Part shown: positions 2,696 to 43,498 of the stretch, in pieces
How positions within the stretch are numbered: position 1 is the stretch's first letter
Layout: each line of letters begins with the position of its first letter
Source: Vulcanococcus limneticus LL
GTDB lineage: Bacteria; Cyanobacteriota; Cyanobacteriia; PCC-6307; Cyanobiaceae
Assembly: GCF_002252705.1 (NCBI RefSeq)
Contig: NZ_NQLA01000001.1
Location: 62,001 to 126,000 of the forward strand
DNA length: 64,000 bases
Reading direction: 5' to 3'
Translations under genes and position numbers: made by a program
The notes under the pieces: model-generated
What the model saw: only the letters and a program-made list of their open reading frames with translations
The model's database searches: none
Told to the model about the DNA's origin: nothing

Positions 2696-5518
2696 TCAGG
2701 ATCTCTTCAAGCCCAGCTGAAGCAGCCGCTGCAGCTGGCGGCTTTCCAGCTCCATCACCCGGCGGGCCAGATCCGGATCCCGGTCCAGAACCGCGTCGAA
2801 TGCATCCACGGGCAGCGCCAGCAGACGGGTTCGCTCCGCGTCCGCGACGATGGGTGAGTCGACGGTCCCATGGCTCAGCACCTCCAGCTCGTCGAGCACC
2901 TGTCCCGGCCTGAGTTCTTCCACCCAGACCCCGTCGGGCCCTTGCCGATGGATCGTGGCGGCACCCTCGATCAGCAGCAGCAGTTCACGGCACGTGTCGC
3001 CCGCGGCGGTGATCACCTCATCGCGGTGATAGCTGCGGATCTCGGCTTGCCTGGCCAGGGCCTCGAGGCTGTCGACCCAGGTGCGGCGGAAGAAGTCGCT
3101 CGTGGCGAGAAACACCCGTTTCTCCAGGTCTGGGTTGCCGGAGAGTTCTGGCGTCTGGTCGGGGTTCGCCAGCAGCCACTGGGCTGTGTTCACCGTCAGG
3201 TCGGCTCCACCGGTTGCCGCGATTTCCGCGGCCAGTGCCAGCCCCCGCTCGCGGTCCAGCCGGGTGATCAGGAACAGGGAGGAGGCCACCACGATGGCGT
3301 TGCCGTCGCGCACCAGGCCCTCCACGTGCCCAACGCTGCGGCTCAGGGGGACCGCGATGGAGCAGACGGCGGGCAGCGCACCAGGCTCCGAGAGCTGGCG
3401 GCGCACGTCGGGTGGCAGTTTTGCCGCCCAGTCGCCCTCTGCGAGCAGTTCCTGCAGGATCAGGGGCGAGGCCTGCTGGAGCGCGGCCACGAGGGGGGGC
3501 ACCGCCGGATCCGCCTGCAGGGTCACCAGGCAATCCAGGATGGTGCGCAAGGCCAGCTCCTGGCGCTGGCGCAGGTGATCGCTCAGCAGGGCCAGCACCA
3601 CCGGCGACTCCTGCAGGTTCGGCTGGTGCAGGCAGCGATAGGCGTCGATCAGTCCCGGCAGGCGCTGCAGCAGCACCTGGGCCTTCTGGGCCGCACTGGT
3701 GCTGGGGGAGAGGCCTCCGAGCACCATCGCCTCCTCCTGGGGCGAGATCGCAAACTCCCGCTGCAGGGCACGCCTGGCGACGGCGTCGTTGGTCTGCAGG
3801 GCCATCAGCCTTTCCAGGGAGCGGCGATAGCCACTGAGGCGGATCTGGTTCTCGAGGCTGCGTCGCTCGGCCGGATCGAGCAGGGCGGGATCCCCGACCC
3901 CCAGCTCCTCCAGCAGCTGCTGATGTTCGTCATCGCTGATGCCGAGTTCCCGCCGCATCTGCTGCAGCACCTCGAGGCTGCTGGCGGCATCGACATAGCC
4001 CTCCTCCAGCGCTTCGCGCACCACTCCCTTGTAGGCCTCGTGGCGCTTCTGGCGGCTGAAGCCCGGCAGAACCTTGGCCAGTACATACACCTCGTGGGTG
4101 TTCAGATCTCCCACGGAGCGCCCCTCGAGGTAATGGCTCAGATCGAGGCCCAGCTTGTCGAGCTGTTTGCGGAAGCGGCTCGACAGGCCTTCGCGGCTGT
4201 AGAGATCGGGGCTGCGCCGCCAGGCCTTCACCAGCCACAGGGTGCTGGTGGCCACGTTGGCCAGATCGAACAGGTATTGAACCCAGCCCGGCAGCAGCAG
4301 CAGGATCGGCCGGCCGCCGAACAGGAAGAACACGTTGAACACCAGCACCGTGGCCAGCACGAAGACCCGATGCCGCACCAGGGTTCTGGCCTGCTCCAGG
4401 CCCTGCCGATGGGCGTGATGGCGCCAGCGGTGCTCCAGCCAGCGCCCGACTCGCCAGCCGCCCCAGGTGAACAGGCCGAGGGTGATGGGAACCGCCACAA
4501 GCCGGGGAATGTTGATGGCCCGTCCAAACACATAGAACCCCGGACTCAGCAGCGTGCTGAGCTGATCGCTCTGGCGCGCCCAGAGGCCGGAGAAGTAGTA
4601 GTCCCAGTTGCCCGCGTAGAGGTAGTAGTAAACGAAGTAACCCACCACGAGGCCAACGTAGGCATAGCGCTCGAAGCTGAACTGGCGGGTTTCGAGTCTT
4701 GCCCAGTACATCCGCTCGGCATCGATGTCGATGCAGGGCTGCTGGCAGGCCACACAGGCACTCTGCTCCGTGCCATCCGGCCGCGTGCTGCGGCACATCG
4801 ACTGGGTGATCGGCTGCGGGCTCAGATGGGCCTTGCTGCCCAGCAGGCCCGATGGCGTGGAGTAGATGCTCTGCACCGGTGCCATTGGGCAGAAGTACTG
4901 GCACCAGGCCTTGCCGCCATAGAGCCACCCCACCAGAACCGCCGCCGCGATCGTGAGCAGCAACCAGCTGGCCAGCAGCACGCGGTCGGCATTGAAGAAC
5001 AGGATGCGCCCGCACAGGCCGATGAACAGCCAGCCGAACTGGATCTTGCCGTAGTGCTTCGCCAGCCACGAATCGGGCGGCACCTTGGCGATCTGGGTGC
5101 GGACCTGGCCTGTCTTGGCCTGCAGGCTGCGCAGTTGCCGCTGCAGGCCTAGGGCCCTGGGGATCTGGGAGAGAAACGACAGCGGACAGATGCGGCGCCA
5201 GAGCTCATGGCCGAACACCAGCAGGATGAAGATGGCCGCAGGCACCACGGCCCCCCAGAACAGGGTGGTGCCCAGGGGATAGGGCTGCTCCACCACGCAG
5301 GTTCCCTGCACGGAGACGCAGGTCTCCGGCAGACGGAACAGGCTCCAGGGGTGATCCCGTTGGGTCAGCTGGGGCGTCCAGGGGTCGTAGAGCAGGGAGC
5401 CCACGATCAGCAGCCAGCCCGTGGTGAGAAACCAGCGGATCGCGTGCATCCGCCGTTCCGGAACCGATGAAGCAACCCCCAGGGGCTGCCTGGCTTCAGC
5501 CGGCTTCGTCGTGGTCAT
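2696..5518 (-). CDS. Nitrate-cluster-linked membrane protein with Fe-S cysteine motifs and C-terminal cyclic-nucleotide-binding-like domain
   Basis: A 940-aa multidomain protein. The N-terminal ~450 residues contain several hydrophobic helices and polyferredoxin/NosR-NapH-like cysteine motifs: RRICPLSFLSQIPR, AWCQYFCPMAPVQ and a CVACQQPC cluster. The middle ~350 residues are soluble and helical, with no family recognised. The last ~145 residues look like a cNMP/CRP-type beta-roll (YHRDEVITAAGDTCRELLLLI through GQVLDELEVL and the C-terminal helix). It overlaps the 3' end of nrtD by 23 bp, so it is translationally coupled to the nitrate ABC transporter. ATG 5518 was chosen; a TTG two codons earlier is possible. 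Inferred role: a redox-active or redox/ligand-sensing accessory of nitrate uptake or assimilation. No enzymatic function can be assigned from sequence alone. Confidence 0.75.
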   Translation of the reverse strand: MTTTKPAEARQPLGVASSVPERRMHAIRWFLTTGWLLIVGSLLYDPWTPQLTQRDHPWSLFRLPETCVSVQGTCVVEQPYPLGTTLFWGAVVPAAIFILLVFGHELWRRICPLSFLSQIPRALGLQRQLRSLQAKTGQVRTQIAKVPPDSWLAKHYGKIQFGWLFIGLCGRILFFNADRVLLASWLLLTIAAAVLVGWLYGGKAWCQYFCPMAPVQSIYSTPSGLLGSKAHLSPQPITQSMCRSTRPDGTEQSACVACQQPCIDIDAERMYWARLETRQFSFERYAYVGLVVGYFVYYYLYAGNWDYYFSGLWARQSDQLSTLLSPGFYVFGRAINIPRLVAVPITLGLFTWGGWRVGRWLEHRWRHHAHRQGLEQARTLVRHRVFVLATVLVFNVFFLFGGRPILLLLPGWVQYLFDLANVATSTLWLVKAWRRSPDLYSREGLSSRFRKQLDKLGLDLSHYLEGRSVGDLNTHEVYVLAKVLPGFSRQKRHEAYKGVVREALEEGYVDAASSLEVLQQMRRELGISDDEHQQLLEELGVGDPALLDPAERRSLENQIRLSGYRRSLERLMALQTNDAVARRALQREFAISPQEEAMVLGGLSPSTSAAQKAQVLLQRLPGLIDAYRCLHQPNLQESPVVLALLSDHLRQRQELALRTILDCLVTLQADPAVPPLVAALQQASPLILQELLAEGDWAAKLPPDVRRQLSEPGALPAVCSIAVPLSRSVGHVEGLVRDGNAIVVASSLFLITRLDRERGLALAAEIAATGGADLTVNTAQWLLANPDQTPELSGNPDLEKRVFLATSDFFRRTWVDSLEALARQAEIRSYHRDEVITAAGDTCRELLLLIEGAATIHRQGPDGVWVEELRPGQVLDELEVLSHGTVDSPIVADAERTRLLALPVDAFDAVLDRDPDLARRVMELESRQLQRLLQLGLKRS

Positions 5519-6338
5519 GGGCAAAGCGGTTGTAGAGAAAGTCCAGGGCGCTGTTGCGCAGCTCGTAGTACCGCGGGTCCTCCATGATGTCCTCCCGGTT
5601 GCGGGGGCGTGGGAAGTCGATCGTCAGCACCTCGCCGATCGCCGCCGATGGTCCGTTGGTCATCATCACCAGGCGGTCGGCGAGAAACAGGGCCTCGTCG
5701 ATGTCGTGGGTGATCATCAGCACCGTGCACTTCTGGGTGTTCCAGATCTTGAGCAGCTCCTCCTGCAGCTCTTCCTTGGTGATGGCATCCAGGGCCCCGA
5801 AGGGCTCGTCGAGGATCAGCACCTCCGGCCGGATCGCCAGGGCGCGGGCGATGGCCACCCGCTGCTTCATGCCGCCGGAGAGCTGGGTGATCAGCTTCTC
5901 AGCCGCCTGGGTGAGACCCACCAGCTCCAGATGCTCCATCACGATCTCACGCTTCTCCCGCTCCGCCAGCTGGGGCTTCACGGAGTCGATCGCCAGGTGC
6001 ACGTTGTCGTAGGCACTGAGCCAGGGCAGCAGGGCATAGCCCTGGAACACCACCATGCGGTCGGGGCCCGGTCGCTGGATCGGCTGGCCCTTGAGCAGCA
6101 CGCGACCGCTGGTGGGTTTGGCAAAGCCAGACACGGTATTGAGCAGGGTGCTCTTGCCGCAGCCGGAGTGGCCGATCAGGCAGACGAATTCGCCGGCCTG
6201 TACCTCCAGATTGACGTTCTCGAGCACCGGATAGGGCCCCTTGGGGGTGGGGTAGGCCATGCCCAGCTGCTCGAAGCGCAGCAGGGGGGCTCCCGCGGCG
6301 GCGGGGCTGGAACGGTCGGACCGGAGCGTGGAGGTCAT
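5496..6338 (-). CDS. nrtD: Nitrate/nitrite ABC transporter ATP-binding subunit NrtD
   Basis: A 280-aa ABC ATPase of the nitrate/taurine/aliphatic-sulfonate class. It shows Walker A GHSGCGKST near residues 56-64, signature LSGGM near 153-157, Walker B LILDEPF near 174-180 and the following D-loop. Length and ATPase-only architecture fit NrtD, the partner of the larger NrtC. The reading frame is open upstream to 6692, but ATG 6338 begins just before the conserved domain and 67 bp after the nrtC stop, so it is preferred. The 3' end overlaps the next gene (the Fe-S/cNMP protein) by 23 bp. It acts at the cytoplasmic membrane with NrtB. Confidence 0.93.
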   Translation of the reverse strand: MTSTLRSDRSSPAAAGAPLLRFEQLGMAYPTPKGPYPVLENVNLEVQAGEFVCLIGHSGCGKSTLLNTVSGFAKPTSGRVLLKGQPIQRPGPDRMVVFQGYALLPWLSAYDNVHLAIDSVKPQLAEREKREIVMEHLELVGLTQAAEKLITQLSGGMKQRVAIARALAIRPEVLILDEPFGALDAITKEELQEELLKIWNTQKCTVLMITHDIDEALFLADRLVMMTNGPSAAIGEVLTIDFPRPRNREDIMEDPRYYELRNSALDFLYNRFAHDHDEAG

Positions 6339-6405
6339 GGCGGTGAGCGGTGGATGGACGGGGGAGGGAAACGGGTTCGGGACGCCGGTCAGGCCGGCGA
6401 CGCGA

Positions 6406-8397
6406 TCAGGTCGCCAGGATGCGGGGCACGCCGACCGGGATTTCGGCCACGCTGAAGTCCTGGTGGATGGAGAGGGTGTTGAGGTAGCTGATCGGGTCGT
6501 CGGCGTTGAAGGGCACGCCATCGAACAGCTCGATGCCGCCCCGTTGATACGACACATCGTCGAGGCCCAGCTCGCGGGCCGCCGTGCTGTAGACCCCCAC
6601 CGAGCACACGCGCTCGAGGATCTCCACGTAGTTGCGCGGGAAAGGAATCTCGCTCCAGCGGGCCAGCTGGGTGAGGATCCAGAGGTGTTCACTACGGCTG
6701 GGACGGTTCACCCCGGGGCCGAAGAAGAGGGTGTGGGCGGTGCCGTGGGGATTGTCCCGGTCGCCATCCGGCACACCGAAACGGATCAGCTCCTGCTTCA
6801 TGCCCAGGTAGCGCCGATCGCTGAGCAGCGCACTGAGTTCGTCCCAGTGGGCGGGATCGGCGCAGTAGCGGCACGCCTCAAGCAGCGCCTTGGTCAGGGC
6901 GATGTGGGTGTTGGGGTAGGCCAGGGCCCAGTCTTCGCGCACGCCGAGCACCTTGCCGGGGTGGCCGTCCCAGATCTCGATATCGCCCACGATCGGGAAG
7001 CCGTGGCCTTCCCGTTCGGCCCGGTAGTTCCAGGGCTCGCCGATGCAGTAGCCATCGATCGAGCCGTCCTTGAGGTCGGCCAGCATCTGGGCCGGCGGAA
7101 TGGTCTGCAGATGCACGTCGCGGTCGGGGTCGATCGCGTTCGAGGCCAGCCAGTAGCGCAGCAGCAGGTTGTGCATCGAGGCCGGATGCACGATGCCGAG
7201 GGTGTGCGACTCCCGATTGGTGCGCAGCAGGTAGTCGCGGTAGTCGGCCACACTGCTCACGCCCTGCTCGGCGAGCCGGCTGGCCAGGGTGATGCCGTTG
7301 CCGTTGCGGCTCAGGGTGAGGGCCGTCACGATCGGCGTTGGATCGCCGCCGTGGCCACCGGCCGTCATCCAGGTGGGCATGCCGGAGGGCATCAGCCCCG
7401 CATCGAGGGTGCGGTCGAGCAGGCCGTCGGTGATGCCGCGCCAGCTGGTTTCCCGCACCAGGTGCACCTCATCGAGGCCGTGTTTGGCGAAGAAGCCCTT
7501 GGCTTCGGCCACCGCCAGCGGCGCGCAGGCTGCCAGGGGGATGAAGCCCAGATCGAGGTTCACCTTCTCCAGGCCATGGCGGGCCAGCACCTTGTGGGGC
7601 TTGGCCTGCCACTGCTTCACCCGCTTCTGGCGGTTGAGGAAGTAGATGATCTCCGAGCGCAGGCTGTAGTAGCTCGGGTGGTGCACCACCTCCAGGCGCT
7701 GGCGCGGCCGGGGGATGTCTACCTCCAGGATGCCGCCGATCTTCGAGCCAGGCCCGTTGGTGAGCATCACGATGCGGTCCGAGAGCAGCACGGCCTCGTC
7801 CACGTCGTGGGTCACCATCACCGCGGTGAGCTCGTGCTCGTTGCAGATCTGCATCAGCTTCTCCTGCAGATTGCCCCGGGTAAGGGCATCGAGGGCCCCG
7901 AACGGCTCGTCGAGAAGCAGCAGCTTGGGCTTGATCGCCAGGGCGCGGGCGATGGCCACCCGCTGGCGCATGCCACCCGAGAGTTGCAGGGGTGGCTTGT
8001 CGGCCGCATGGGCCAGTCCCACCATGGCGATGTGCTCCTCCACCACGGCGTTGCGCTCGGCTGCGGAGAGATCCGGCATCACCTCGTCCACGGCCAGGGC
8101 GATGTTTTCGCGCACCGTGAGCCAGGGCAGCAGGGAGTAGTTCTGGAACACCACCATCTTGTCGGGCCCCGGCCGCTTCACGGTTTCCCCATCCAGGAGA
8201 ACCGTGCCGCCGGTCGGTAGATCCAGCCCGGCGATCATGTTGAGCAGGGTGCTCTTGCCGCAGCCGGAGTGGCCGATCAGGGAGATGAACTCCCCCTTGC
8301 GAATCTCGAGATCAATGCCCTTGAGGGCCAGATAATTGCCTCCCCCCTGCAGGGGGAAGTCCTTGGCAACGTCCTGAACAGCGACCAGTGTTGTCAT
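6406..8397 (-). CDS. nrtC: Nitrate/nitrite ABC transporter ATPase fused to NrtA-like domain, NrtC
   Basis: A 663-aa protein with the two-part architecture peculiar to cyanobacterial NrtC. Residues ~1-255 are an ABC ATPase (Walker A GHSGCGKST 42-50, LSGGM near 139-143, LLLLDEPFG near 159-167). Residues ~280-660 are homologous to the substrate-binding protein NrtA (NLDLGFIPLAACAPLAVAEAKGFFAKHGL, then DVHLQTIPPAQMLADLKDGSIDGYC). In the well-studied systems the C-terminal domain is the site of ammonium-promoted inhibition of uptake; that role is known for the family and inferred here. ATG 8397 is the only start before the domain. Confidence 0.95.
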   Translation of the reverse strand: MTTLVAVQDVAKDFPLQGGGNYLALKGIDLEIRKGEFISLIGHSGCGKSTLLNMIAGLDLPTGGTVLLDGETVKRPGPDKMVVFQNYSLLPWLTVRENIALAVDEVMPDLSAAERNAVVEEHIAMVGLAHAADKPPLQLSGGMRQRVAIARALAIKPKLLLLDEPFGALDALTRGNLQEKLMQICNEHELTAVMVTHDVDEAVLLSDRIVMLTNGPGSKIGGILEVDIPRPRQRLEVVHHPSYYSLRSEIIYFLNRQKRVKQWQAKPHKVLARHGLEKVNLDLGFIPLAACAPLAVAEAKGFFAKHGLDEVHLVRETSWRGITDGLLDRTLDAGLMPSGMPTWMTAGGHGGDPTPIVTALTLSRNGNGITLASRLAEQGVSSVADYRDYLLRTNRESHTLGIVHPASMHNLLLRYWLASNAIDPDRDVHLQTIPPAQMLADLKDGSIDGYCIGEPWNYRAEREGHGFPIVGDIEIWDGHPGKVLGVREDWALAYPNTHIALTKALLEACRYCADPAHWDELSALLSDRRYLGMKQELIRFGVPDGDRDNPHGTAHTLFFGPGVNRPSRSEHLWILTQLARWSEIPFPRNYVEILERVCSVGVYSTAARELGLDDVSYQRGGIELFDGVPFNADDPISYLNTLSIHQDFSVAEIPVGVPRILAT

Positions 8398-36718: not shown

Positions 36719-38047
36719 ATGCTCACCGCGCTCCAGCTCCGCCAGTTCAAGTCGTGGCAGGACACGGGCTCTGTGGCCCTGGCGCCAGTGACGATGCTGC
36801 TGGGCACCAATTCCTCGGGCAAGTCGTCGCTGATCCAGAGCCTGCTGCTGCTCAAGCAGACGGCCCAGTCGCCCGATCGCACCGTGCACCTCGACCTCGG
36901 CGGCGAGGAGAGCACCGCCAGCTTCCACTTCGGCGACTTCGCCAGCCTGCTCAAGCAGGGGGCCAGCCCGCGTCGCGTCGGCATCGGCTTCAGCTTCGCC
37001 CGCAGCGGCAGCGCTGAGCGGGTGGCCAGCGGCCGGTTCCAGGCCAGCTACGGCCAGAGCGCCAGCGGCGCCGTGGTGGTGCAGGAGCTGACCCTGGAGG
37101 ACGGGGCCGGCCAGCGCTTCCGGACCGTGCGGCGCGAGAAGGGGAGCTACGGGCTGCTGGTGGGGGCCGAGAACCAGTCCAAGGGCAGGAGCCCCGCCTT
37201 CAGCCCCGAGCGCTCGATCGCCTTGCCGGCCAGGGCCATCGCCGAGCTGGGCGCCGCGGGTGCCCGCGTTGAAGACCTCAGCCTGGCGATCCGCCGCGAA
37301 CTGGAGGAGATCCTCTACCTCGGCCCGCTGCGCCGCAAGCCCGAGCGCGACTACCAGTGGGATCGGGCCCGCCCCGGCGAGATCGGCAGCGATGGCGGCC
37401 GCAGCATCGACATCCTGCTGGCCGACGCGCTGCTGCCGGGGCCAGAGCGCAACGGCATCGTGAACGGGGTGTCGCATTGGCTGCAGCGCATGGGAATTGC
37501 CCAGCAGCTGCTCGTGCGCCAGGTGGGCCGCTCCAGCCGCTACGAGGTGGTGATCGACCAGGAGGCGGTGGCCGCGAACCTGCACGATGTGGGCATCGGC
37601 ATCTCCCAGGTGCTGCCGGTGCTCACCGTGGCCTTCTTCGCGCCGCCCGGCAGCACCGTGATCCTGGAGGAGCCTGAGATCCACCTGCACCCGCTGGCCC
37701 AGTCGGTGCTGGCTGAACTGCTGGTGGAGGTGAGCCTGAGCCGCCAGGTGCAGTTCATCGTGGAGACCCACTCCGAGCACCTGTTTCGCCGCATGCAGAC
37801 CCTGGTGGCTCGCCAGGCCATCGCCCCGGGCGACTGCGCCCTCTACTTTGTCGACAAGCTGGCGGGCAGCTCCCAGCTGCGCCGTCTCAGCCTCGACGAC
37901 TACGGCCGGCTGCTGGATTGGCCCGAGCACTTCTTCGGCAATGCCATGGGCGATGCGGAGGAGCAGGCCCGGCTGATGTTCGAGCGGCAGATGATCGAGC
38001 GGCAGAGGGCCGGGCGCCAGGGGGCTGATCGGCAGCGCGAGGCCTAG
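36719..38047 (+). CDS. AAA (OLD/SMC-like, DUF3696-type) ATPase
   Basis: A 442-aa ATPase. The N-terminus LTALQLRQFKSWQDTG leads to Walker A LLGTNSSGKSSLIQSLLLLKQ near residues 27-47. The middle region has LYLGPLRRKPERDYQW, a NLHDVGIGISQVLPVL signature-like motif, Walker B TVILEEPEIHLHP and the His switch in VETHSEHLFRRM. This architecture is that of AAA15/OLD-like ATPases ending in a DUF3696 region, often found beside nucleases. The stop codon is 2 bp from the start of a PIN-domain gene, so the two products are likely made together. No TOPRIM nuclease domain is visible. Confidence 0.8.
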   Translation: MLTALQLRQFKSWQDTGSVALAPVTMLLGTNSSGKSSLIQSLLLLKQTAQSPDRTVHLDLGGEESTASFHFGDFASLLKQGASPRRVGIGFSFARSGSAERVASGRFQASYGQSASGAVVVQELTLEDGAGQRFRTVRREKGSYGLLVGAENQSKGRSPAFSPERSIALPARAIAELGAAGARVEDLSLAIRRELEEILYLGPLRRKPERDYQWDRARPGEIGSDGGRSIDILLADALLPGPERNGIVNGVSHWLQRMGIAQQLLVRQVGRSSRYEVVIDQEAVAANLHDVGIGISQVLPVLTVAFFAPPGSTVILEEPEIHLHPLAQSVLAELLVEVSLSRQVQFIVETHSEHLFRRMQTLVARQAIAPGDCALYFVDKLAGSSQLRRLSLDDYGRLLDWPEHFFGNAMGDAEEQARLMFERQMIERQRAGRQGADRQREA

Positions 38048-38049
38048 CC

Positions 38050-38715
38050 ATGAGATCCCGCTATGTGGTGGATACCAACGTGTTGATCGCCGCCAGCGCC
38101 GGCAACCCCCAGCAGCACCGTCCGATCGAGGCCACCCCGGAGGACCCCACCCTGCGCCTGGCGGTGTGGCAGTGGCTGAAGGCGTTCAAGGAGTCGGACA
38201 GCCGGCTGGTGCTCGATGGAGCGGGCCGCATCTTCGAGGAATACCGCCACCAGCTGGGCTTCGGCGACTACGGCCATCAGGTGGTGCTGCACAAGTGGAG
38301 CACCTGCGCCAGTGATGTGGTGGAGATCGCCTACGACACCGACGGCAACGCCGTACTGCCGGCGGATCTGCAGCCTGTGGTGCACGACCTGGCCGACCGC
38401 AAGATGGTGGCCGCCTGCGCCGAGGCGATCCGGGTGCATGGCGCCTGCTGGATCGCCTTCGCCGGCGACACCGACTGGCACGGCTGGGAGCAGGCCCTGA
38501 GCGCCCACCGGATTCCGCTGGAGCCGGTGATTGAGTCCTGGTCGCGCCAGAAGTACGCTGAAAAGGAGGGTCTCGCTGGTGGACTGCATGGGCGCCAGCA
38601 GGAGCGGCACCATGGGCGTCCGAATGAGCGCCAACACCACCAGCATGATCACGGCTCGCATGTGCACGGCCCGCATGATCACCGCCATGGCGAGGCCCAC
38701 GACCAGCACGACTGA
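38050..38715 (+). CDS. PIN-domain-like nuclease with His-rich C-terminal tail
   Basis: 221 aa. Residues 1-165 look like a PIN domain: N-terminal YVVDTNVLIAAS with the first catalytic Asp, an intermediate acidic residue in FEEYRHQL, and DLADRKMVAACAEA followed by FAGDTDWHGW with the later acidic residues. Residues ~175-221 form a low-complexity tail with about 15 His plus Asp and Arg (for example HHQHDHGSHVHGPHDHRHGE), perhaps metal-binding. It starts 2 bp after the AAA ATPase gene. Expected activity is a metal-dependent RNase. The target is unknown. Confidence 0.75.
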   Translation: MRSRYVVDTNVLIAASAGNPQQHRPIEATPEDPTLRLAVWQWLKAFKESDSRLVLDGAGRIFEEYRHQLGFGDYGHQVVLHKWSTCASDVVEIAYDTDGNAVLPADLQPVVHDLADRKMVAACAEAIRVHGACWIAFAGDTDWHGWEQALSAHRIPLEPVIESWSRQKYAEKEGLAGGLHGRQQERHHGRPNERQHHQHDHGSHVHGPHDHRHGEAHDQHD

Positions 38716-38757
38716 CAGGGTTTCTCCCAGCGCCGCGAACCCGGGGCCAACCACGCC

Positions 38758-39537
38758 ATGACCCCTGCCGCCCACCCTGCCATGACCGGCGGCGCCAGCA
38801 GCGCCGGGGATCCGGAGTTCTTCCGCTTCCCCCACACCCCCCACCTCGCCTGGCTCGGCAGTGGGGATGTGCGCGGCGACAAGGTGCTCACCACGCCCGA
38901 GGCCGAGAGCTTTCTCCAGGCCGACCTGTCGGTGGAGGAGAAGGTGGATGGGGCCAACCTGGGCCTCTCCCTCGCCTCCGATGGCCGCCTGCGGCTGCAG
39001 CAGCGCGGGGAGTACCTGCAGGCGCCGTTCCAGGGCCAGTTCACGCGCCTTGGCTCCTGGCTGGCGGTGCATGGGCCGGCGCTGACGGCCTTCCTCTCGC
39101 AGCCGGAACATCGGGGCCTGGTGCTGTTCGGCGAGTGGTGCGCCGCCCGCCACTCGCTCGACTACGGGGCCTTGCCGGACCTGTTCCTGCTATTCGACGT
39201 GGTGAATCCCCGGGACCCGCGCTTCTGGAGCGCGGCGCGGCGCAACGCCCTGGCCCTTGAGCTGGGCCTGGCGGCCGTGCCCACCCTGCACCGGGGCCGG
39301 CTGGATCTGCCGGGGGTGGTCTCCCTGCTGGACAGCGCCCCCAGCCGCTACCGCAGCGGTGCCCCTGAGGGCTTCGTGCTGCGCCATGACGACTTGGACT
39401 GGTGCGTGTCGCGCAGCAAGCTGGTGCGGCCGGAATTCACCCAGGCGATTGCTGAGCACTGGCGCTCCCAGCCCCTGGTGTGGAACCGAGTGGATTATGG
39501 CGCGGCGTCCGAACCTGGCGGATACGGGTCTCCGTAG
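38758..39537 (+). CDS. ATP-dependent RNA ligase family protein
   Basis: A 259-aa protein with the nucleotidyltransferase motifs of Rnl2/T4-like RNA ligases in order: motif I EEKVDGANLG (AMP-accepting Lys), motif Ia QQRGEYLQ, motif III LVLFGEWCAARH, IIIa LFLLFDVVNPRDPR, motif IV PEGFVLRHDD and motif V SRSKLVRPEF. Such enzymes seal RNA nicks or breaks using ATP. It lies 42 bp downstream of the PIN gene on the same strand. ATG 38758 is used, with ATG 38782 as an alternative. Confidence 0.85.
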   Translation: MTPAAHPAMTGGASSAGDPEFFRFPHTPHLAWLGSGDVRGDKVLTTPEAESFLQADLSVEEKVDGANLGLSLASDGRLRLQQRGEYLQAPFQGQFTRLGSWLAVHGPALTAFLSQPEHRGLVLFGEWCAARHSLDYGALPDLFLLFDVVNPRDPRFWSAARRNALALELGLAAVPTLHRGRLDLPGVVSLLDSAPSRYRSGAPEGFVLRHDDLDWCVSRSKLVRPEFTQAIAEHWRSQPLVWNRVDYGAASEPGGYGSP

Positions 39538-39614
39538 CCCAGCTCACCTCCGGCGAGCGAGCAAACCCGCGAGAATCGGTTTAACGAAGCAAGCCATATC
39601 CGGGCCCCAGCTCC

Positions 39615-39848
39615 ATGCGTGAAATCGTGTTCCGGGTGCTCCCCGATCGGCCAGGGCGCCTCCAGGCCACCGCCGAAAACGAGACGATTCGAATTGAGGC
39701 CGACTCCCTTGAAGAACTGCAGTACGAGGCCCGCGAGGCCCTGATCGAACGGCTGGGTCCGTCCCACGTGGCCTATCGCGTGCGGCTGAAGCGCAGTCAG
39801 GCGCCGATCGTCGCCCGGCCTTGCTCCCGGCCACTGCCGCTCGGCTGA
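39615..39848 (+). CDS. HicB-like orphan small protein
   Basis: A 77-aa protein with the partial RNase-H-like fold pattern of HicB antitoxins: MREIVFRVLPDRPGRLQATA, IRIEADSLEELQYEAREALI and HVAYRVRLKR. No HicA toxin gene is adjacent; instead it follows the AAA-PIN-RNA ligase genes by 77 bp. Such orphan HicB-like proteins are common and of unknown function. A regulatory or antitoxin-like role for the PIN protein is only speculation. Confidence 0.65.
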   Translation: MREIVFRVLPDRPGRLQATAENETIRIEADSLEELQYEAREALIERLGPSHVAYRVRLKRSQAPIVARPCSRPLPLG

Positions 39849-43113: not shown

Positions 43114-43178
43114 GGCGCAGATCGCGTTTGAGGTCGTCGTAGCCAGCCTCCGATGGGACGGGCCCCGCTCCACGGATT

Positions 43179-43268
43179 TCCTGCAGATCCCATTCCTGCA
43201 GATCCCATTCCTGCAGATCCCATTCCTGCAGATCCCATTCCTGCAGATCCCATTCCTGCAGATCCCAT
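43179..43268. repeat. 15-bp tandem repeat, six perfect units
   Basis: TCCTGCAGATCCCAT is repeated perfectly from 43179 to 43268 (starts 43179, 43194, 43209, 43224, 43239, 43254), and a mutated seventh copy runs to about 43284. Each unit contains a PstI-type CTGCAG palindrome. It lies in the 385-bp gap between two divergent small genes. Perfect identity of the units implies recent expansion or homogenisation. There are no spacers, so it is not a CRISPR. Confidence 0.95.
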
Positions 43269-43498
43269 GTCCTGCAGATGCCATGGGGCGGGCTCTCCGG
43301 TTGCAGGCCCTCAATGACCTCCACTGGGAGCTGTGGCCCCGGCCCGACCTCGGCACCCTGGAGTGCGCGGGATGGAACCTCCCGCCGCCGGGATCCCGCC
43401 CTGGCGCCACCACTGATCCCGTCGCCCAGCACAACTTCAGCCTGAGCGAGCCCTTCGCCATGGCCCAGCATGGAAGGTATCCCCGACCTGCCTGCCCC

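Follow-up and report, generated by a model that had tools for sequence, protein, structure and literature searches.

This locus raises the question of whether an RNA ligase gene standing behind an ATPase gene and a nuclease gene belongs with them to one system. It lies in a stretch of 64,000 nucleotides (nt) from the cyanobacterium Vulcanococcus limneticus LL (contig NZ_NQLA01000001.1, positions 62,001 to 126,000), referred to below as the window, in which genes for an AAA ATPase, a PIN-domain protein and an ATP-dependent RNA ligase make up a compact operon pointing rightward. The first two correspond to HEC-03 (Hma-embedded candidate 3) of PADLOC, a listed but uncharacterised candidate which comprises a PIN protein (HEC-03A) and an ATPase (HEC-03B). 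The features are given here together with a neighbouring open reading frame (ORF); AAA class and PIN clade refer to the groups described further below.

36719 to 38047, + strand: AAA/ABC-type ATPase with a DUF3696 C-terminus, HEC-03B type, AAA class A; first gene of the operon and its proposed sensor or regulator
38050 to 38715, + strand: PIN nuclease gene, 2-nt gap after the AAA gene, HEC-03A type, PIN clade I, C-terminal tail rich in His
38758 to 39537, + strand: ATP-dependent RNA ligase gene (Pfam RNA_ligase), 42-nt gap after the PIN gene, nucleotidyltransferase core only, catalytic K62
39615 to 39848: HicB-like ORF, the fourth, without Pfam or NCBIfam support

Recurrence of the AAA-PIN-ligase operon

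Contigs of GTDB were searched with a profile of the ligase only, which gave at least 542 relatives. The best 80 loci were kept; these are the closest relatives of the query, and the proportions given here may differ for more distant ligases. AAA, PIN and ligase genes in the same order and on the same strand were present in 69 of the 80 loci, PIN and ligase without AAA in 7 (3 of these cut by a contig end) and the ligase without PIN in 4. The PIN gene lies directly upstream of the ligase in 73/77 loci not cut by contig ends. The order of the trio is held at 50–60% ligase identity, and the usual gaps within trios are 0–20 nt with stop and start codons often overlapping. Because the same order recurs in 69/80 loci that were found without using AAA or PIN, the arrangement is far from chance and the three-part system is real. 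The worry expressed in the initial annotation, that the ligase could be an unrelated neighbour, is thereby refuted, and the ligase is found beside AAA-PIN pairs in several phyla instead of in one close clade.

Most of the 80 loci are from Pseudomonadota; some come from cyanobacteria, and one bin each is labelled as Verrucomicrobia and Chloroflexota. Annotated plasmids with the trio include conjugative Aeromonas plasmids and plasmids of Azotobacter, Tistrella and Rhodococcus (Actinomycetota), where the three genes are recorded as DUF3696 or AAA protein, hypothetical protein and RNA ligase family protein. No relatives of the Lelliottia trio were found in E. coli. Among 151 genomes of the family of the window organism, the PIN gene is present in 9 and the ligase in 6; four genomes contain the ordered trio, and a sister genome, recorded as Synechococcus sp. 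GreenBA-s, has the same locus as the window. A fifth genome (G059) contains a decayed copy (L016, 6400–9500), in which a nucleotidyltransferase/HEPN-like ORF has taken the place of the N-terminal part of the AAA protein and the ligase has a frame shift.

Four loci with PIN and ligase but without AAA (L137, L153, L161 and L173, near 6400–7700) adjoin exeA/gspB-type genes and have retained their active sites. They occupy what looks like one chromosomal site and possibly represent a domesticated pair. The ligase stands alone in L133 and L150 and is part of a type I restriction locus in L169. Distant cyanobacterial RNA ligases (L038–L044, about 30% identity) were considered as members of the same system and rejected, as they have other contexts and neither AAA nor PIN. 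One of them (L039:6381-10404) has nucleotidyltransferase-like, Thg1-like and kinase-like ORFs in the same run of genes, an arrangement reminiscent of an RNA-repair cluster. In one further cyanobacterium an AAA gene, a small Toprim-like ORF and a distant RNA ligase follow each other (L047:5014-7612); a link between this ATPase and the ligase was dismissed, since the ATPase and the Toprim-like ORF are missing beside the ligase in two relatives of the same genus. A phage-borne origin of the ligase was likewise discarded, as the viral contig collection yielded only 2 relatives and the matches in three huge phages were at 25–28%.

AAA-PIN pairs also exist without the ligase. Of 390 cyanobacterial genomes sampled, 21 contain HEC-03A, and 2 of these 21 have the ligase (the window genome and G047); in 321 genomes sampled from the class of Variovorax, HEC-03A was found in 5 with an adjacent ligase in 3. 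Plasmid records of the PIN protein include the ligase in 9/12, the other 3 being from Acinetobacter, and in the window family itself three genomes of one genus (G008, G063, G149) have the pair only. In the AAA tree the ligase-less pairs form a group of 21 sequences plus scattered cases, so that the state of the ligase needs three changes, and the window AAA is located in a divergent clade apart from the ligase-less HEC-03 proteins. Judging from this distribution, the HEC-03 pair has in the ligase a third gene that is optional yet of long standing.

The identities proposed for the proteins by the initial annotation were borne out. The window AAA matches Pfam AAA_15 (7e-21), AAA_21 (1e-20) and DUF3696 (5e-9) as well as the PADLOC models for HEC-03B (4.3e-84) and AriA (3e-23). 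Its sole sequence match in the PDB is the OLD-family ATPase 6p74, and Walker A is present in 75/75 ligase-linked ATPases examined.

The window PIN has no Pfam match and matches HEC-03A with 8.1e-7, as do 7/7 other trio PIN proteins that were tested. Across 60 homologues the acidic residues E64, D113 and D116 are found in 60/60, D8 in 59/60 and D140 in 57/60. The AlphaFold2 (AF2) model (pLDDT 87.5) has a VapC-like fold with VapC21 as top structural match (Z 10.2), suggesting that the middle protein is a VapC-like PIN protein with a conserved acidic active site and predicted RNA cleavage. Its C-terminus (38567–38715) carries a His/Asp-rich tail of about 48 residues, which is shorter in the sister genome and lacking in the other aligned homologues; this tail may bind metal or be a read-through that has drifted.

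The ligase matches Pfam RNA_ligase PF09414 (1.2e-26) and none of the PADLOC models. K62 of motif I and motifs III, IIIa, IV and V, the set also known from the Rnl2/Rnl5-like ATP-dependent RNA ligases, are invariant in 75/75 homologues, and the full motif set claimed earlier is thus confirmed. The AF2 model (pLDDT 86.6) is most similar to the Naegleria nick-sealing RNA ligase (Z 15.6) and to T4 Rnl2(1-249) (Z 15.2). Since these matches cover the nucleotidyltransferase core only and the relatives used have about 225–260 residues, the protein seems to be a catalytic core without the C-terminal domain of Rnl2 or the N-terminal domain of Rnl5. All three genes are, by sequence comparison, under purifying selection with their catalytic residues kept (dN/dS 0.02–0.38 in the close pairs allowing an estimate, including PIN and ligase of the AAA-less loci).

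The four-gene cluster described in the initial annotation is therefore reduced to three: AAA, PIN and ligase with their spacings of 2 and 42 nt stand, whereas the HicB-like member does not. Homologues of this ORF are found at other loci in 12/12 well-assembled genomes of the genus, its sole PADLOC match is weak (E 0.03), Pfam HicB does not match it, and the operon has no linked HicB partner.

Exchange of the cassette upstream of the ligase

Among the ligase-linked ATPases there is a deep split, marked by a long branch, into two classes; class A occurs with PIN clades I or II and class B with PIN clade III. A class B trio AAA matches HEC-03B with 7e-131. The ligase tree ignores this split and groups more by host lineage. 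The cyanobacterial ligases L095/L096, which occur with class B AAA, branch within those cyanobacterial ligases that occur with class A, and a tree in which the class A ligases were constrained together was rejected (p-AU 1e-5, log-likelihood (lnL) difference 522).

Comparisons of individual loci point in the same direction. Variovorax paradoxus L135 (class A/PIN II) and V. guangxiensis L122 (class B/PIN III) agree to 84% in the upstream flank and to 88.5% from the ligase start onward, and the AAA-PIN genes in between are not alignable. The same pattern, with alignable flank and ligase around non-alignable AAA-PIN genes, is seen in cyanobacteria between L096 and L015. In L107 the AAA-PIN slot is occupied by PD-T4-4, an anti-T4 system consisting of an AAA and a second protein (A 5e-203, B 2e-93), directly upstream of the same ligase and bordered on its two sides by homologous flank and ligase; unlike the trio, PD-T4-4 has no PIN protein, and it was seen once upstream of the ligase. 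In this locus (5017–7780) the ligase frame opens at the last codon of PD-T4-4 B, and restriction-type and DUF3800-like genes adjoin.

Among cross-cassette pairs with alignable ligase DNA (n = 1449, the pairs being mutually non-independent) the homologous block starts at most 40 nt from the ligase start in 1208, with a median of −2 nt; for pairs of the same cassette class the median is −1165 nt. The reverse case is given by L014 and L015, which are 91% identical in AAA and PIN and 70.5% in the ligase. By sequence, the AAA-PIN cassette in front of the ligase has thus been exchanged repeatedly, with the ligase being retained.

Surroundings and relation to known systems

The immediate neighbours of the trio loci were scanned with PADLOC models at a threshold of 1e-15. 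Upstream, at least 12/65 neighbours had a match (type IIG restriction-methyltransferase 7, argonaute 3, type I specificity 2), and downstream at least 17/75 (HNH 10, type I restriction enzyme 2, Fic 2, and single JetA, DpdE, ZorD-type and others). Random proteobacterial genes matched in 3–4 of 75 cases, all to the mad3 and mad8 models. In L192 the trio is placed between an HmaB-type methylase and a PLD-helicase, and the ligase-less loci L188 and L189 also show such methylase/helicase embedding. A viral contig (L249:2909-9291) carries the complete trio close to a portal gene, which we read as P2-like. The defence context assumed in the initial annotation is thus supported by the HEC-03 match, the restriction, argonaute, HNH, Zorya- and JetA-type neighbours, PD-T4-4 in the slot, the plasmids and the portal-bearing viral contig, and trio loci are often located in mobile, defence-rich surroundings.

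A tmRNA gene is located about 5 kb upstream of two trios. A tRNA or structured RNA near the trio as target or decoy was considered and rejected, as tRNAs near the relatives are rare and unsystematic. RtcR-type regulators upstream were rejected as well, the PADLOC matches in question being NorR/NifA-like sigma-54 activators.

The immediate surroundings of the window trio are ordinary chromosome, and its left flank (glycosidase, CrtO-like, hydrolase) is kept in 5 sister species without the trio. No match to an Rfam RNA or tRNA was found anywhere in the window. Further downstream, at 43178–43284, there are seven near-perfect copies of the 15-bp unit TTCCTGCAGATCCCA (97% match), which are open in several frames on both strands.

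According to the initial annotation no described system has this combination. This requires qualification, because the AAA-PIN part is already listed as HEC-03, with the two genes adjacent and in the same order as in the window. The ligase is an extra, however, as PADLOC has only the A and B models, and no publication on the ligase as third gene or on the exchange was found; an earlier mention in the review of Burroughs and Aravind (2016) is possible. Reports of antiviral activity of HEC-03 were not found in the literature. Unlike HEC-03 as originally listed, the window trio is not Hma-embedded, with no Hma genes among the 37 window proteins scanned, but this embedding is how the candidate was found and not part of the two-gene model.

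Like Pnkp-Rnl-Hen1, the trio is a conserved bacterial operon with an ATP-dependent RNA ligase. It has, however, neither Pnkp nor Hen1, the partners of the ligase being AAA and PIN, and its ligase is a minimal core. Nucleases of the PrrC/Pnkp type leave 2',3'-cyclic phosphate and 5'-OH ends which need healing. The analogy to PrrC/RloC with T4 Pnkp/Rnl1 suggested in the initial annotation therefore extends to the theme of breaking and resealing RNA but not to the ends, which are expected to differ for PIN, and the operon includes no kinase/phosphatase gene. In addition, the repair enzymes in the case of PrrC belong to the phage and end healing is needed (PMC3506569), whereas the trio ligase is encoded in the same operon as the nuclease, without a healing enzyme. 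PARIS has an ATPase of the same broad OLD/AriA class adjoining a small nuclease, AriB, which leaves 5'-phosphate and 3'-OH on tRNA (PMC12409363); the trio differs in that its nuclease is a PIN protein and not the Toprim/DUF4435 protein AriB, and in the added ligase gene. The nearest published link to the trio is that of HARP, a PIN-type RNase P of extremophiles, with the ATP-dependent RNA ligase Rnl3, which is larger and to which HARP is usually divergent (PMC12153264). Unlike the trio, HARP-Rnl3 has no ATPase partner and no cassette exchange.

Proposed function and alternatives

We propose, with belief somewhat outweighing doubt, that the trio is a mobile three-gene module directed against phages or other mobile genetic elements, in which an RNA ligase has been added to the ATPase and PIN protein of HEC-03 and can seal the cuts made by PIN. 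By analogy with AriA-AriB, the OLD/AriA-like ATPase would keep the PIN nuclease inactive and free it on sensing an invader. PIN would then cut RNA, most likely tRNA as VapC does, leaving a 5'-phosphate and a 3'-OH, and the nick-sealing ligase would rejoin these ends without end-healing enzymes. Resealing may limit the toxicity of leaky PIN in uninfected cells and let cells recover, while full activation in infection would outrun the repair. PIN chemistry is expected to produce exactly the 5'-phosphate and 3'-OH ends which an Rnl2-type ligase joins directly, and this fits the absence of an end-healing gene from the operon. The four loci that keep PIN and ligase without AAA are also in favour of this proposal.

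A ligase sealing any such cut would not need to know the cutter, and one ligase serving many cassettes would be explained if it is blind to the position of the cut and to the cutter. A further-reaching version, which we put forward tentatively and with doubt slightly prevailing, is that the RNA ligase is the fixed part of a widespread immune chassis, that varying cassettes of sensor and nuclease (two divergent AAA-PIN types and, at least once, PD-T4-4) are placed upstream of it by recombination at its start codon, and that it renders their RNA damage reversible, in place of irreversible abortive infection.

Several points weigh against the proposed module. Phage protection, RNA cleavage and ligation by the trio proteins are predictions, and there are PIN proteins that are inactive or have DNA as substrate. 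Ligase-less HEC-03 pairs are common (19 cyanobacterial loci, three in the window family, Acinetobacter and two proteobacterial genomes), so that PIN can do without the ligase. One ligase follows PD-T4-4, in which there is no PIN, three ligases are found without PIN or AAA, and no defence island surrounds the window trio.

The main alternative sees in the ligase a gene for general RNA repair that belongs to defence loci, mending breaks made by phage enzymes or other host nucleases and riding with AAA-PIN since both are useful in infected cells, not in order to mend PIN cuts. Its persistence while the cassette changes, its position behind PD-T4-4 in L107 and in the type I restriction locus L169 and its solitary occurrence in L133 and L150 would agree with such a role. 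We nevertheless regard it as rather unlikely, as PIN is directly upstream in 73/77 ligase loci, four loci keep exactly PIN and ligase without AAA, and a ligase without an end-healing enzyme would be suited to the 5'-phosphate and 3'-OH of the PIN kind and not to HEPN- or colicin-type breaks. The same AAA-less loci can also be read as pointing away from immunity, given that PIN and ligase occur there in four bacteria at apparently one chromosomal site by exeA/gspB-type genes: PIN and ligase might constitute an ATPase-controlled RNA-processing pair for the circularisation or splicing of a specific RNA. The link of the PIN-type RNase P HARP to Rnl3 is an example of PIN-ligase pairs outside defence (PMC12153264). 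However, the patchy presence (PIN in 9/151 family genomes), the carriage on plasmids and a viral contig, the defence-rich neighbours and the exchange with PD-T4-4 are unlike housekeeping, and the lack of an Rfam RNA in the window and of systematic tRNAs near the trio does not favour it either, so that we consider RNA processing improbable. A coincidence within one clade, with the ligase as unrelated neighbour of the AAA-PIN pair, might be suggested by the ligase-less pairs of G008, G063 and G149 in the same family, but it is scarcely conceivable in view of the co-occurrence count, the several phyla and the order held at 50–60% ligase identity.

RNA ligases in the conflict between phage and host are known mostly as phage counter-measures or from separate stress-repair operons. 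In the trio, nuclease and ligase are encoded by one mobile operon. The ligase represents a third gene of HEC-03, an uncharacterised candidate, that had been overlooked, and its pairing with unrelated nucleases constitutes a natural experiment. If the ligase indeed reseals the cuts of its own nuclease, immunity directed at RNA can be reversible, and it would become directly testable how cells safely carry leaky RNA-cutting effectors, a question of long standing.

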